A stretch of DNA of 48,489 nucleotides from contig JAFTSU010000021.1 of the NCBI GenBank assembly GCA_017467105.1, positions 1 through 48,489 on the forward strand. The letters run 5' to 3'. Both the position numbers and the translations under genes were made by a program. Position 1 is the stretch's first letter; every line of letters starts with the position of its first letter. The notes beneath the pieces were generated by a model, which was given only the letters and a program-made list of their open reading frames with translations, did no database searches and was not told the origin of the DNA. Shown here one piece after another: positions 1 to 48,489 of the stretch. The DNA is from Clostridia bacterium (GTDB lineage: Bacteria; Bacillota; Clostridia; Oscillospirales; CAG-272).

Positions 1-284
1 AACTTCAATTCCTGCTTTATCAGCTGTAGCAATTTGGAAAATGTATCCTCTTTTTCGGTATAATGATACGAACTGTCACAAAGCATTTTTCCATTGTGAT
101 AAATTTCGCCTCGATCTGTTATGAAGGTATGTGTGTCTTTCCCGATTTCCAATTTCAAAACAATATTTCCAAAAACTTTTTCGTAATAATCAAACGAAAC
201 TACAGTTGCGTTGGTCGGTAGAAGTGTTTTTATCATCTCAAACATTTCATTCTTTTTTTGTTCTACTCTTTTCTTGAAAAACAA
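1..284 (-). CDS. Partial hypothetical protein (cargo of the tRNA-Trp palindrome module)
   Basis: A minus-strand reading frame is open from a TTG at 284 to the window edge, about 94 codons, and its C-terminus is cut off. The start is chosen because a strong GAGGAGGTG Shine-Dalgarno (291-299) lies seven bases upstream and no ATG is suitably placed. The N-terminus reads MFFKKRVEQKKNEMFEMIK, followed by a mixed alpha/beta-looking region (IVLKLEIGKDTHTFITDRGE). It has no recognisable family, signal peptide or membrane segment. Codons are visibly A/T-ending and lysine-rich, unlike the GAG/AAG/TAC-rich genes from 912 onward, which suggests horizontal acquisition (inference). It is driven by the promoter at 308-336, whose -35 box is the end of the palindrome array. 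Confidence 0.6.
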   Translation of the reverse strand, partial: MFFKKRVEQKKNEMFEMIKTLLPTNATVVSFDYYEKVFGNIVLKLEIGKDTHTFITDRGEIYHNGKMLCDSSYHYTEKEDTFSKLLQLIKQELK

Positions 285-307
285 TGTTGACACCTCCTCT
301 ATAATAC

Positions 308-336
308 ATTATACCACACTTTTGTAAACAAATCAA
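308..336 (-). promoter_or_regulatory. Promoter of the 1-284 gene, embedded in the end of the palindrome array
   Basis: On the minus strand TTGATT (336-331) and TATAAT (313-308) are separated by exactly 17 bases. The -35 box overlaps the last palindrome (334-348). The spacer ends in AAAGTGTGG, almost identical to the spacer of the promoter at 48020-48048. Confidence 0.8.
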
Positions 337-520
337 GGCAAAGCCTTGTATATCATCCGCAACTTGTTGCGGTATATCATCAATGCGAAGCATTGTATAT
401 CATCAAGCCGCAGGAGAGATACAGCCCCAAAGGGGCTGATGAGATACAAGGGCGGTGAGCCGCCCTTGATGATATACACCACGCTTCGCGCGGCGATGAT
501 ATGCCAAGCCTGCGGCTTGG
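334..520 (-). repeat. Array of variable short palindromes with constant 8-nt spacers
   Basis: Read on the plus strand, palindromes lie at 334-348 (CAAGGC/GCCTTG), 357-372, 381-395, 422-438 (CAGCCCC/GGGGCTG), 447-468 (nine-bp arms), 477-495 and 504-520 (CCAAGCC/GGCTTGG). A half-palindrome CAAGCCGCAGG lies at 404-414. Palindromes differ from each other in sequence and are 15-22 nt long, with loops of about 2-4 nt. The spacers are near-constant: TATATCAT at 349-356, 373-380 and 396-403, then the reverse complement ATGATATA or close variants at 439-446, 469-476 and 496-503. The array lies between the hairpin after tRNA-Trp and the promoter of the 1-284 gene. Function is unknown. It could be a nucleic acid recombination substrate or a structured RNA. 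Confidence 0.85.
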
Positions 521-523
521 ATA

Positions 524-566
524 AACAAAAAGAGAACTTTTGTCTACCAAAAGTTCTCTTTTTGTT
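524..566 (-). terminator. 19-bp-arm inverted repeat directly after tRNA-Trp (terminator-like, conserved)
   Basis: A perfect inverted repeat has 19-nt arms (524-542 and 548-566) and a 5-nt loop. On the minus strand it reads as a hairpin followed by a T tract, so it would terminate tRNA-Trp. It begins on the A of the encoded CCA. The near-identical repeat after ssrA (47817-47860) has a compensating G-C pair in place of one A-T pair and the loop in reverse complement. Confidence 0.85.
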
Positions 567-641
567 GGCAGGGGCAGAAGGACTTGAACCCACGACCCAT
601 GGTTTTGGAGACCAGTACTCTACCAACTGAGCTATACCCCT
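566..641 (-). tRNA. tRNA-Trp (anticodon CCA)
   Basis: The minus strand folds as a complete cloverleaf. The acceptor AGGGGTA pairs with TGCCCCT. The anticodon loop is CTCCAAA with anticodon CCA, the T arm contains GGTTCAAGTCC, the discriminator is G, and CCA is encoded. It delivers tryptophan at UGG codons. It has its own promoter and is followed at once by the inverted repeat at 524-566. Confidence 0.95.
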
Positions 642-47451: not shown

Positions 47452-47817
47452 GGGGCCGTAAAGGTTTCGACAGGGGTTTTGAGATATGATAAGCGTGGCG
47501 GGCAGGATAATCCCGTAAAACTGTCCAAACTTAAAAATAAACGACAACAATAGAGTTGCTCTGGCAGCGTAAGCTGCTGACGCGGCAATAACGCCGCCCG
47601 TACCGCGTGAGAGGACTACGACTCACGCCGTGCGTCAAATTAGTAGTGCCCGTGAACCGAGATTTCGCACTTGTATCGGTCACGCATTAAAGCGCTACCG
47701 GAGCGAGAGCCTGTCTATCGGCGCTCGCAAAGGGAATTTCAAAAGATAAGACTGCCCACGGAGAAGGTTATATCAAGGGGCTTTTGGACACGGGTTCGAC
47801 TCCCGTCGGCTCCACCA
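47452..47817 (+). ncRNA. ssrA: Transfer-messenger RNA (tmRNA)
   Basis: The 5' end GGGGCCGTAAAGGTTTCGAC and 3' end GGTTCGACTCCCGTCGGCTC plus ACCA form the alanyl-tRNA-like domain. The internal tag frame ends AACGACAACAATAGAGTT and then codes ALAA before TAA (47570-47572), giving a tag that ends in NDNNRVALAA; the resume codon is uncertain. It rescues stalled ribosomes with SmpB and tags the chain for proteolysis. The first base after CCA begins the inverted repeat of the downstream palindrome module. Confidence 0.97.
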
Positions 47818-47860
47818 ACAAAAAGGGAACTTTTGTCTACCAAAAGTTCCCTTTTTTGTT
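47817..47860 (+). terminator. Inverted repeat directly after ssrA, matching the one after tRNA-Trp
   Basis: The left arm AACAAAAAGGGAACTTTTG (47817-47835) pairs with its complement at 47841-47860, with one extra T, around the loop TCTAC. It serves as an intrinsic terminator for ssrA. Relative to the RNA gene, the loop is the reverse complement of the loop in the tRNA-Trp copy. Confidence 0.87.
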
Positions 47861-47863
47861 TAT

Positions 47864-48022
47864 CCAAGCCGCAGTAGGGGTTCCCCGAAGCGAGTGCGCG
47901 AGCTTTGGGGGTTCCCGTAGGCTTGGTATGGAATCAACGCGCCCCGCGCGTTGTATGGAACCCCGACGAAGTCGCGAATGGCATTGCGCGAAGCGCGTAT
48001 AGAATAAAGCTCCTGCGGCTTG
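47864..48022 (+). repeat. Second array of variable palindromes with near-constant 8-nt spacers
   Basis: Palindromes: 47864-47926 (CCAAGCC/GGCTTGG outer arms with an insertion in the loop), 47935-47953 (CAACGCG/CGCGTTG), 47962-47976, 47985-47997, and a half-palindrome at 48007-48022 whose minus strand contains CAAGCCGCAGG. Spacers are TATGGAAT (47927-47934), TATGGAAC (47954-47961), AATGGCAT (47977-47984) and TATAGAAT (47998-48005). The layout matches the array at 334-520, but the spacer family differs. It lies between the ssrA hairpin and the promoter of the GNAT gene. Confidence 0.82.
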
Positions 48023-48048
48023 ATTTATCTCTGAAAGTGTGATATAAT
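48020..48048 (+). promoter_or_regulatory. Promoter of the partial GNAT gene, embedded in the array end
   Basis: TTGATT (48020-48025), a 17-base spacer ending AAAGTGTGA, and TATAAT (48043-48048). The -35 box is the end of the last palindrome. It is nearly the same composite as at 308-336. Confidence 0.85.
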
Positions 48049-48086: not shown

Positions 48087-48489
48087 ATGAGCAGTTTAAC
48101 TTATCAGAAAATGATATTTGAGGACGATGCCGATGTTTCTAAACTTGTAGAAATATATCAAGCACCCGAAATTTCGCGATATTTAAGTATCAGCGACAAC
48201 TACTTTCACTATGTGACAAATAATAAAAATGTTCATTTTTACAAAGTGTACAAAAATGACGAATTGATTGGAACGACACATCTGGAACAACAAGAAACCG
48301 TACTGTTTATGGATGTATTGGTGTTTCCTAAGTTTCAAAGAGCAGGATTAGGTACAAGTATTGTCAAAGATATTCAAGATGATATTTTTGAACTCGGTTA
48401 TAAAAGCATTGAAATTTCCATTGATGAAGAAAATATTGGATCTTTAAGATTGTTCGAGAAGGCTGGATTTGCATTCGTATCAAAAGAAG
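48087..48489 (+). CDS. GNAT family acetyltransferase, 3'-truncated by the window
   Basis: 134 codons are visible before the window ends. It has the GNAT pattern: an N-terminal region MSSLTYQKMIFEDDADVSKL, the motif A strand and loop VLVFPKFQRAGLGTSIVKDI (Q-R-A-G-L-G binds acetyl-CoA), and motif B with DEENIGSLRLFEKAGFAFV. It transfers an acetyl group to an unknown acceptor. GGGTG lies before the ATG. Codons are visibly A/T-rich (AAT, AAA, GAA, TTT), like the 1-284 gene and unlike the housekeeping genes between them. It is the cargo gene of the ssrA-linked palindrome module. Confidence 0.88.
   Translation, partial: MSSLTYQKMIFEDDADVSKLVEIYQAPEISRYLSISDNYFHYVTNNKNVHFYKVYKNDELIGTTHLEQQETVLFMDVLVFPKFQRAGLGTSIVKDIQDDIFELGYKSIEISIDEENIGSLRLFEKAGFAFVSKE

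Follow-up and report, generated by a model that had tools for sequence, protein, structure and literature searches.

What kind of element places a row of differing palindromes, separated by near-constant short words, directly behind a tRNA gene and leads from there into the promoter of an AT-rich gene? The question is raised by positions 285–566 of the window, i.e. the whole 48,489-nt stretch of DNA analysed here, which derives from a Clostridia genome (G000; 57% complete, 1.68 Mb, 29 contigs). The feature lies behind the gene for tRNA-Trp (566–641, minus strand), whose CCA end coincides with the start of the element (CC|AA) and constitutes its target site. The opening part is a hairpin (524–566, minus strand) with the loop GGTAGAC/GTCTACC, which occurs in both orientations among the copies. 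The inverted repeat with 19-bp arms proposed in the original prediction was recovered exactly, as the arms at 548–566 and 524–542 are 19 nt each, 100% complementary and separated by 5 nt; together with the T-run that follows, this gives the hairpin the shape of an intrinsic terminator. The T-run and the first array hairpin, H1 (CCAAGCC GCA GGCTTGG), occupy positions 504–526 on the minus strand.

Read on the minus strand, the array comprises the expected seven full palindromes and one half palindrome, all located between 520 and 335: H1 (520–504), H2 (494–478), H3 (467–448), H4 (437–423), the half palindrome (413–405), H5 (394–382), H6 (371–358) and H7 (347–335). A first half-array (414–503, minus strand) contains H2, H3 and H4 together with the spacers CATATCATC, GTATATCATC, GTATCTCATC and GTATCTCTC, and a second half-array (335–404, minus strand) contains H5, H6 and H7 with the spacer GATGATATAC occurring three times. 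Between them lies the half palindrome CTGCGGCTT (405–413, minus strand; hereafter the mid-strand), which complements H1 over its 5' arm and loop (AAGCCGCAG). The spacers had been described as near-constant and 8 nt long; the words are indeed near-constant, but by the present division they are 9–10 nt long, and their orientation flips at the half palindrome (GTATATCATC to GATGATATAC), after which the tRNA-sense strand carries the main first-half word in reverse complement. The left array is two half-arrays placed face to face. When its folding was compared with that of shuffled sequences, z-scores of −6.63 (RNA, minus strand) and −7.49 (DNA, plus strand) were obtained, and 0 of 200 shuffles were as good in either case. 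A promoter follows (TTGATT-N17-TATAAT; 308–336, minus strand), with the −35 element at 336–331 and the −10 element at 313–308, and the −35 element overlaps the tail of H7, as had been noticed from the sequence. The cargo gene behind it (1–284, minus strand) encodes at least 94 amino acids, is cut by the contig end and has no accepted family, its sole match in Pfam being to DUF7809, under the cut-off of that family. Its GC content of 0.32, and that of 0.325 for the cargo gene at the other end of the window, compared to 0.47 for the window, bear out its description as AT-rich.

A second array lies behind the tmRNA gene (ssrA; 47452–47817, plus strand), which is the target site of the second cassette. 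Here, a terminator hairpin with the loop GTCTACC (47817–47860, plus strand) is followed by an array (47858–48025, plus strand) with an expanded-loop H1, GTATGGAATC-type spacers and the mid-strand CTCCTGCGGCTTG at 48010–48022. This array is without a second half and stops at the half palindrome, which also provides the TTGATT-N17-TATAAT promoter (48020–48048, plus strand) of a gene encoding a GNAT-family acetyltransferase (PF00583, 5.8e-12; 48087–48489, plus strand) cut by the contig end. The claim that the same module recurs at ssrA accordingly holds for the terminator, the promoter and the 17-nt junction GTTTATCCAAGCCGCAG, but not for the array as a whole, which has the first half only, other spacers and an expanded first hairpin. 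The junction is found at 526–510 (minus strand) and 47858–47874 (plus strand) with 0 mismatches; allowing up to 3 mismatches, 0.10 matches would be expected, and two were reached in 1 of 100 shuffles. As both cargo genes are cut by the contig ends, the window contains only the 5' parts of two cassettes. Positions 1 and 48489 each fall inside a cassette, and contig ends within cassettes were also seen elsewhere in the genus (e.g. G025:C27, G047:C153 and G016:C10). Cassettes thus seemingly break assemblies, and the copy numbers given here, which come from fragmentary assemblies, are likely underestimates.

The two arrays are members of a family and not chance structures, as had been proposed: a 13-nt core pattern gave 5 matches in the (incomplete) source genome and was found in 34 of 60 genus genomes, source included, compared to 1 match for the reversed control. 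Some pattern matches (L007, L018, L019 and L029) lie inside genes and are without an array. A scan of GTDB contigs yielded at least 119 stretches in metagenome-assembled genomes titled Clostridia, Oscillospiraceae, Ruminococcaceae and similar, and where these records name a host or organ (RGIG), it is the gut of cattle, goat, sheep, deer, yak or buffalo. Among 172 distinct array starts, 9 were too close to the end of the locus, leaving 163 that could be assessed, in loci selected by array pattern or recombinase family and not by tRNA. Of the 163, 93 (raw count) lie directly behind a tRNA or tmRNA gene, with a complete tRNA or tmRNA of 18 kinds ending 28–43 nt upstream, which bears out the proposed association with tRNA and tmRNA 3' ends, and 91 of these 93 copies share the junction CCA+A, i.e. 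the last three bases of the tRNA and the next one. The other 70 starts have no complete tRNA directly upstream; by eye, many of them follow a partial tRNA 3' end or the 3' end of another cassette, and others are chance matches in genes.

Sites and cargo differ between genomes. Judged by eye, 17 readable tRNA-Trp sites comprised 4 with a TTTAT[CT]CAAGCC array, 2 with another hairpin array and 11 with neither, and 3 of 29 tmRNA sites carried an array (one odd row left out), so occupancy varies. The family thus extends to further copies, and arrays and cargo are not fixed among relatives. Palindrome arrays of a similar kind also occur between ordinary genes. A palindrome–spacer array with 27 spacers in L238 (1669–2412), and the same unit arrays in L234, L237 and L240–L242, are without a tRNA or cassette start. 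The window array had no blastn match in the phage and plasmid collections. Viral contigs gave 1 match to the relaxed pattern (L377), 0 with the stricter pattern and 19 stretches with the spacer pair; in L377, no tRNA (ARAGORN) and no recombinase (profile) were found, and by eye the cassette cargo is that of L005 and L010.

When both strands of all loci were searched for segments enclosed by GATGATAT[AG]C words, 378 units were obtained, 170 of them distinct. Four or more perfect outer pairs are formed by 68% of the distinct units, compared to 0.9% of random segments of the same length. Variable palindromes between constant words, the opposite of CRISPR arrays with their constant repeats and variable spacers, are what these loci show, as had been recognized for the left array. 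Spacer types could be classified for 124 of 156 arrays (32 unclassified), and 107 of the 124 are of the ATATCATC/GATGATAT type. The 17 rarer first halves comprise 8 with an exact-complement partner (7 ATGGAATC/GATTCCAT and 1 ATGTAATC/GATTACAT), 7 with a partner differing by one mismatch (ATGGCATC/GATTCCAT) and 2 that mix types. Apart from such exceptions, the two halves of an array correspond in spacer type. A perfect H1 is present in 168 arrays and falls into 11 types, 140 arrays having the type of the left array in the window. The mid-strand is complementary to H1 in 106 of the 168, compared to 202 of 1680 in a cross-type control, with matches in 91 of 140 arrays of the main type and in 15 of 28 arrays of the ten other types (in five of the ten). 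H1 and the mid-strand covary.

Since array lengths differ, pairs within the hairpins were counted per unit and not by alignment-based covariance. On the tRNA-sense strand, 106 distinct first-half hairpins contain 25 G-T, 7 A-C and 12 other mismatches, and 56 distinct second-half hairpins contain 1 G-T, 2 A-C and 6 others; as the units are related, these G-T and A-C counts are not independent. Among the 14 distinct 17-nt forms of unit 2, the outermost pair is A-T in 5 cases, G-C in 4, G-T in 5 and A-C in 0. The G-T excess in the first half hints that the sense strand folds single-stranded, as RNA or DNA, while the second half contains too few mismatches to show strand folding.

Cassettes can follow each other in tandem, and in one class (class I) a 3' end could be defined. 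In L035, L036 and L037, a terminator, an array, a gene and a 3' end are followed by a terminator and an array again, and cassettes in tandem and in the same orientation were likewise found in L179, L148 and the source-genome locus L376. The class-I 3' end is about 58 nt long, contains two direct repeats (roughly ACCTTTTnn(n)YGTTYTT) and ends in GC. A profile built from eleven ends found 38 distinct ends (the 11 seeds included), and for 28 of these a TTTATC[CT]AAG[CT]C start lies no more than 2.5 kb upstream, partly because most loci had been chosen for having arrays. The junction reads GC|AA in 28 of the 38 and not in the other 10. Behind these ends, a further TTATCC array was found in 13 cases and, in 2, an array with 5 or more hairpins that belongs to another family, while 22 had none by this measure and 1 was too short; the lack of a following array is expected for the last cassette, and also for decayed ones.

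The same cassette was found behind tRNA-Ala (L047) and tRNA-Leu (L148), with 92.9% identity over 1,035 nt. The identity starts after CACC (CC|AA) and stops at AAGGC|AA (GC|AA), and both copies carry the same terminator stem; beyond the shared cassette, a terminator follows in one locus and a terminator and another array family in the other. The tRNA-Ala 3' end occurs nearby in L047 a second time, as CACC|AAACAAAAAAGACC, and the same sequence follows the cassette, making this second copy, as far as the sequence goes, in effect an empty junction. A second pair, L133 (read as a tRNA-Trp remnant) and L193 (tRNA-Leu), is 92.6% identical over 959 nt from the terminator onward, a comparison that stops short of the far end, so that both exact ends were seen in the L047/L148 pair only. 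Among the pairs listed, the others are 75–90% alike, and L180/L211, at 98.5% over the whole 2,350 nt, look orthologous. A search with the flanks for an orthologous empty site returned one long match (L365), which is without a tRNA. The suggestion that the element is a mobile cassette is supported by the cassette found whole, with exact ends, at two tRNAs; for the accompanying suggestion of recombination through single-stranded hairpins, the G-T excess is a hint, and no recombinase was identified. The spacer inversion, the complementarity of the half palindrome to H1, the 3' end, the tandem order and the 23S rRNA intervening-sequence protein (IVP) gene described below had been overlooked.

A promoter of the form TTGAnn-N16-18-TAnnnT after the last spacer was found in 54 of 107 arrays, compared to 2 of 107 mononucleotide shuffles, and in 35 arrays the −35 element is TTGATT, as in both window cassettes. 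The 99 cargo ORFs of at least 80 amino acids have a median GC content of 0.38, and in 60 of 80 pairs the cargo GC is below that of the upstream DNA (600–1350 nt). Starting from 151 array-bearing starts, 192 ORFs were collected, of which 126 were distinct and on the plus strand; 101 were compared to Pfam and 25, mostly short, were left out by hand. Among the best 25 of 67 families, PF05635 (23S_rRNA_IVP) was matched by 17 of the 101 ORFs and an HTH family by 6. PF05635 is not the cargo of either window cassette; it is present in 58 of 69 genus genomes and in 0 of 14 controls. The association was also seen from the side of the IVP genes (best-scoring loci of the family search): the 380 nt upstream were hairpin-rich, i.e. 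exceeded all 40 dinucleotide shuffles, for 16 of 27 IVP genes compared to 3 of 98 ORFs taken as controls from recombinase loci, and at least 6 hairpins were found upstream of 12 of 27 and 1 of 98, respectively (Fisher p 1.1e-8). A tRNA on the same strand within 600 nt was found for 7 of 30 IVP genes, all seven of which are hairpin-rich upstream. At the class level, 5 of 27 IVP genes are hairpin-rich upstream, most being without such arrays, and a tRNA or tmRNA lies upstream of 3 of 29, one of them with both features. By eye, several IVP arrays follow the two-half plan with other words (GTGATAT/ATATCAC, ATGAAGC/GCTTCAT and GTGAAGT/ACTTCAC).

The 18 distinct IVP ORFs behind TTTATCC arrays have a median identity of 79%. 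In 12 of the 18, the next ORF starts within 70 nt, and 6 have no close second gene. The 12 second genes represent 12 blastp families, no two matching at 1e-4, and the junction between IVP and second gene is an identical 4-nt stop–start overlap in 9 of the 12; with such varied second genes and a shared overlap, the IVP gene appears to stay constant in the front position while its partner is exchanged. Among solved structures, the chain closest to one cassette IVP is 2rld. Published work describes the S23p of Xanthomonas as a homopentamer of four-helix bundles from a family without a known function, and the intervening sequences as being of unclear origin with a role in mobility that has only been proposed (PMC4990558); a resemblance of the S23p/IVP family to Avd has been reported (PMC10053308), and in CPR bacteria, rRNA insertions also encode members of the family (PMC11270868). 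A figure legend in a terascale survey of CRISPR systems names the 23S rRNA IVP (PMC10910872), and our guess is that IVP hairpin arrays may have passed for CRISPR arrays in that survey.

We consider it likely that the window feature represents the 5' portion of a mobile cassette that inserts at the CC|AA of tRNA and tmRNA ends, with stacking and gene exchange. On this reading, a cassette consists of a terminator hairpin, a two-half array whose spacers turn into their reverse complement in the second half, a promoter with either a single gene or an IVP gene and a variable gene coupled to it, and, in the class that could be defined, the class-I 3' end. Insertion takes place between CC and AA at the end of the tRNA or tmRNA, ahead of the terminator of the site, so that the RNA gene stays whole and the cargo has its own promoter; cassettes stack in tandem and exchange genes. 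The anatomy, the target, the tandem order, the one cassette with both exact ends at two tRNAs, the differences in cargo and the association with the IVP were seen directly in the sequences. Movement may proceed by site-specific recombination in which only about 3 bp (CAA) are shared and the intermediate is circular or single-stranded, and the machinery may recognize the array folded on the tRNA-sense strand. The Avd-like IVP would be a dedicated partner, arrays without an IVP would be non-autonomous, and catalysis could perhaps be provided in trans by a resident Xer-like recombinase or a tRNA-targeting integrase. A broader proposal, which we put forward tentatively and hold to be possible though doubtful, is that of a second bacterial gene-cassette system unrelated to integrons, with the folded array as its mobile signal, the IVP as a protein dedicated to binding or mobilizing it, docking at tRNA CCA ends and genes loaded at the IVP stop–start overlap; if true, it would also explain the role that the IVP has in rRNA intervening sequences.

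Of 60 genomes, 55 had tyrosine recombinases. One candidate, a protein of about 345 amino acids seen in most genomes, was rejected as the mover, as the five that were profiled (G002, G023, G007, G049 and G010) are Xer-like, with XerC and XerD as the best models, all under the curated cut-offs; its neighbor was an HTH protein in the two cases checked, and a part as helper is possible. Beyond the recombinase loci, a profile of 11 Xer-like proteins detected 5 ORFs, and none of these is clearly part of a cassette, in a search that divergent integrases could escape. Recombinase-like ORFs lie upstream of array starts in L220 (173 nt), L152 (about 1,080 nt) and L128 (about 390 nt, opposite strand) and are possible helpers.

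The tRNA 3' end is a classic target of integrases, and the arrays could therefore be remnants of tRNA-integrating elements, i.e. hairpin pieces left over where the tyrosine integrases of phages or integrative elements had placed DNA at tRNA 3' ends. Elements of this type resemble the cassettes in using the tRNA 3' end as their site and in keeping the tRNA whole, the source genome contains an apparent duplicate of about 50 nt of a tRNA-Leu 3' end in L376 (by eye), and the recombinase-like ORFs near the arrays in L220, L152 and L128 would fit as well. However, tandem repetition is seen for cassettes no longer than about 1 kb, one complete cassette has identical ends at two tRNAs, and many tRNA kinds are used by one family without an integrase being found inside the cassettes. 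Neither is the class-I 3' end a copy of a tRNA end (by eye), as a direct repeat at the far end would be, although the larger L376 element does show a tRNA 3' repeat. Four genomes that are 86–94% complete (G004, G007, G023 and G025) have 2–5 pattern matches each but a single match to PF00589, and the two of these proteins that were profiled (G007 and G023) are Xer-like; we regard an origin as integrase remnants as unlikely. Housekeeping repeats, acting as insulators or RNA-stability hairpins, with cassettes spread by homologous recombination between the repeats and no dedicated system, would account for the arrays in plain intergenic regions, and between cassettes, terminators as well as arrays are alike enough to recombine. 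Such repeats do not readily explain the exact CC|AA and GC|AA points behind unrelated tRNAs and leave the common 3' end beyond the repeats unexplained, which makes this explanation less probable still.

A retroelement, in which a reverse transcriptase with the IVP as its Avd-like partner would copy cassettes from RNA, with priming at the CCA ends of tRNAs, would agree with the insertion exactly at the CCA end, the G-U type pairs on the tRNA-sense strand and the inverted tRNA 3' copies near some sites. Avd, the accessory protein of diversity-generating retroelements (DGRs), indeed resembles PF05635 (PMC10053308). RVT_1, however, is present in only 11 of 69 genus genomes (4 of 22 of the best), a difference from DGRs, and none was found in the incomplete source genome; the reverse transcriptase is too patchy for a universal mover, and the retroelement reading is very improbable. 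Palindromes produced by a RAYT or another Y1 transposase, as in REP, BIME or REPIN sequences, would be similar in being short, arranged in arrays between genes, flanked by fixed words and present in two orientations. In the arrays described here, the palindromes vary and the spacers are near-constant, and we know of no gene cassettes with a 3' end among BIMEs. Y1_Tnp was found in 18 of 69 genus genomes (15 above the cut-off), leaving 51 of 69 hosts where none was found, and none was found in the incomplete source genome, which has at least 5 copies; the Y1 transposase is likewise too patchy for a universal mover. We give this explanation the lowest probability of all.

Stackable and swappable gene cassettes are, to our knowledge, known chiefly from integrons, and the cassettes at tRNA ends are similar to these in that small units, each with one or two genes, stand in tandem in the same orientation, with a folded element between genes, few junction bases in common and mostly unknown cargo. 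In contrast to integron cassettes, they target the tRNA or tmRNA end and not attI, have the array on the 5' side and carry their own terminator and, in about half of the tested arrays, a recognizable promoter. The attC ends, with the consensus RYYYAAC/GTTRRRY, were absent at the cassette junctions (by eye). An integron reading was rejected, as 0 of 69 genus genomes had an integron integrase (TIGR02249) above the curated cut-off, with weak matches below it in 62 of 69; none was found in the source genome (57% complete). The intervening sequences of rRNA share with the cassettes an IVP/S23p (PF05635) gene, stem-loops, a stable-RNA target and a sporadic distribution, and differ from them in lying inside rRNA and not behind tRNA or tmRNA; the large two-half array and the coupled variable second gene are further differences. 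A location of the IVP inside 23S rRNA was likewise rejected, since the 20 class-level IVP loci searched (of 30) had no rRNA match and no IVP inside 23S rRNA, and the window copies lie at tRNA-Trp and tmRNA. The arrays belong to a large family of cassettes in gut bacteria that is integron-like but without the integron enzyme and inserts exactly behind tRNA genes. Nothing recognizable as this element came up in the open-licence PMC literature searched with narrow terms (preprints excluded), a limited basis on which to call the family new. A separate cassette family docking at tRNA genes, in which every cassette supplies a terminator, a hairpin array and a gene of its own, would give gut bacteria a new way to exchange genes, and the cassettes provide a handle on the old question of the role of the IVP/S23 protein and the movement of intervening sequences.

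Several further observations were made. In L376 (source genome, C23:75000-82475), a tRNA-Leu is followed by two arrays and a Fic-like gene (by eye) and, beyond the tRNA-Leu 3' duplicate, by a third array with an IVP and another lipoprotein-like gene. Behind the tmRNA in L246, L248, L258, L267 and L270, a terminator is followed by an apparent inverted, diverged copy of the tmRNA 3' half, and a similar inverted copy of the tRNA 3' half is apparent behind tRNA-Trp in L289 and, less clearly, in L297, L298 and L303 (all by eye). In L246 and L289, the inverted copy is followed by a direct copy, forming large palindromes of the tRNA end, as if copied by fold-back. Another apparently mobile sequence occupies the tmRNA site in L249, L253, L255, L271 and L273, where a near-identical stretch starting with AACGTGTATTGGACGAACAC or similar and a shared terminator follow tmRNAs that are 73–88% identical to that of the window, and G039:C97 contains two near full-length tmRNA matches about 1.4 kb apart. 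Finally, by eye, short tandem words (CACTCTT, GGAGTTA, AATGCAA and similar) take the place of the hairpin array at tRNA-Trp in L288, L290 and L295 and upstream of the IVP in L304, L307, L308 and L313; those at tRNA-Trp have a partly complementary word further on, possibly representing the two-half plan with hairpins of zero length.
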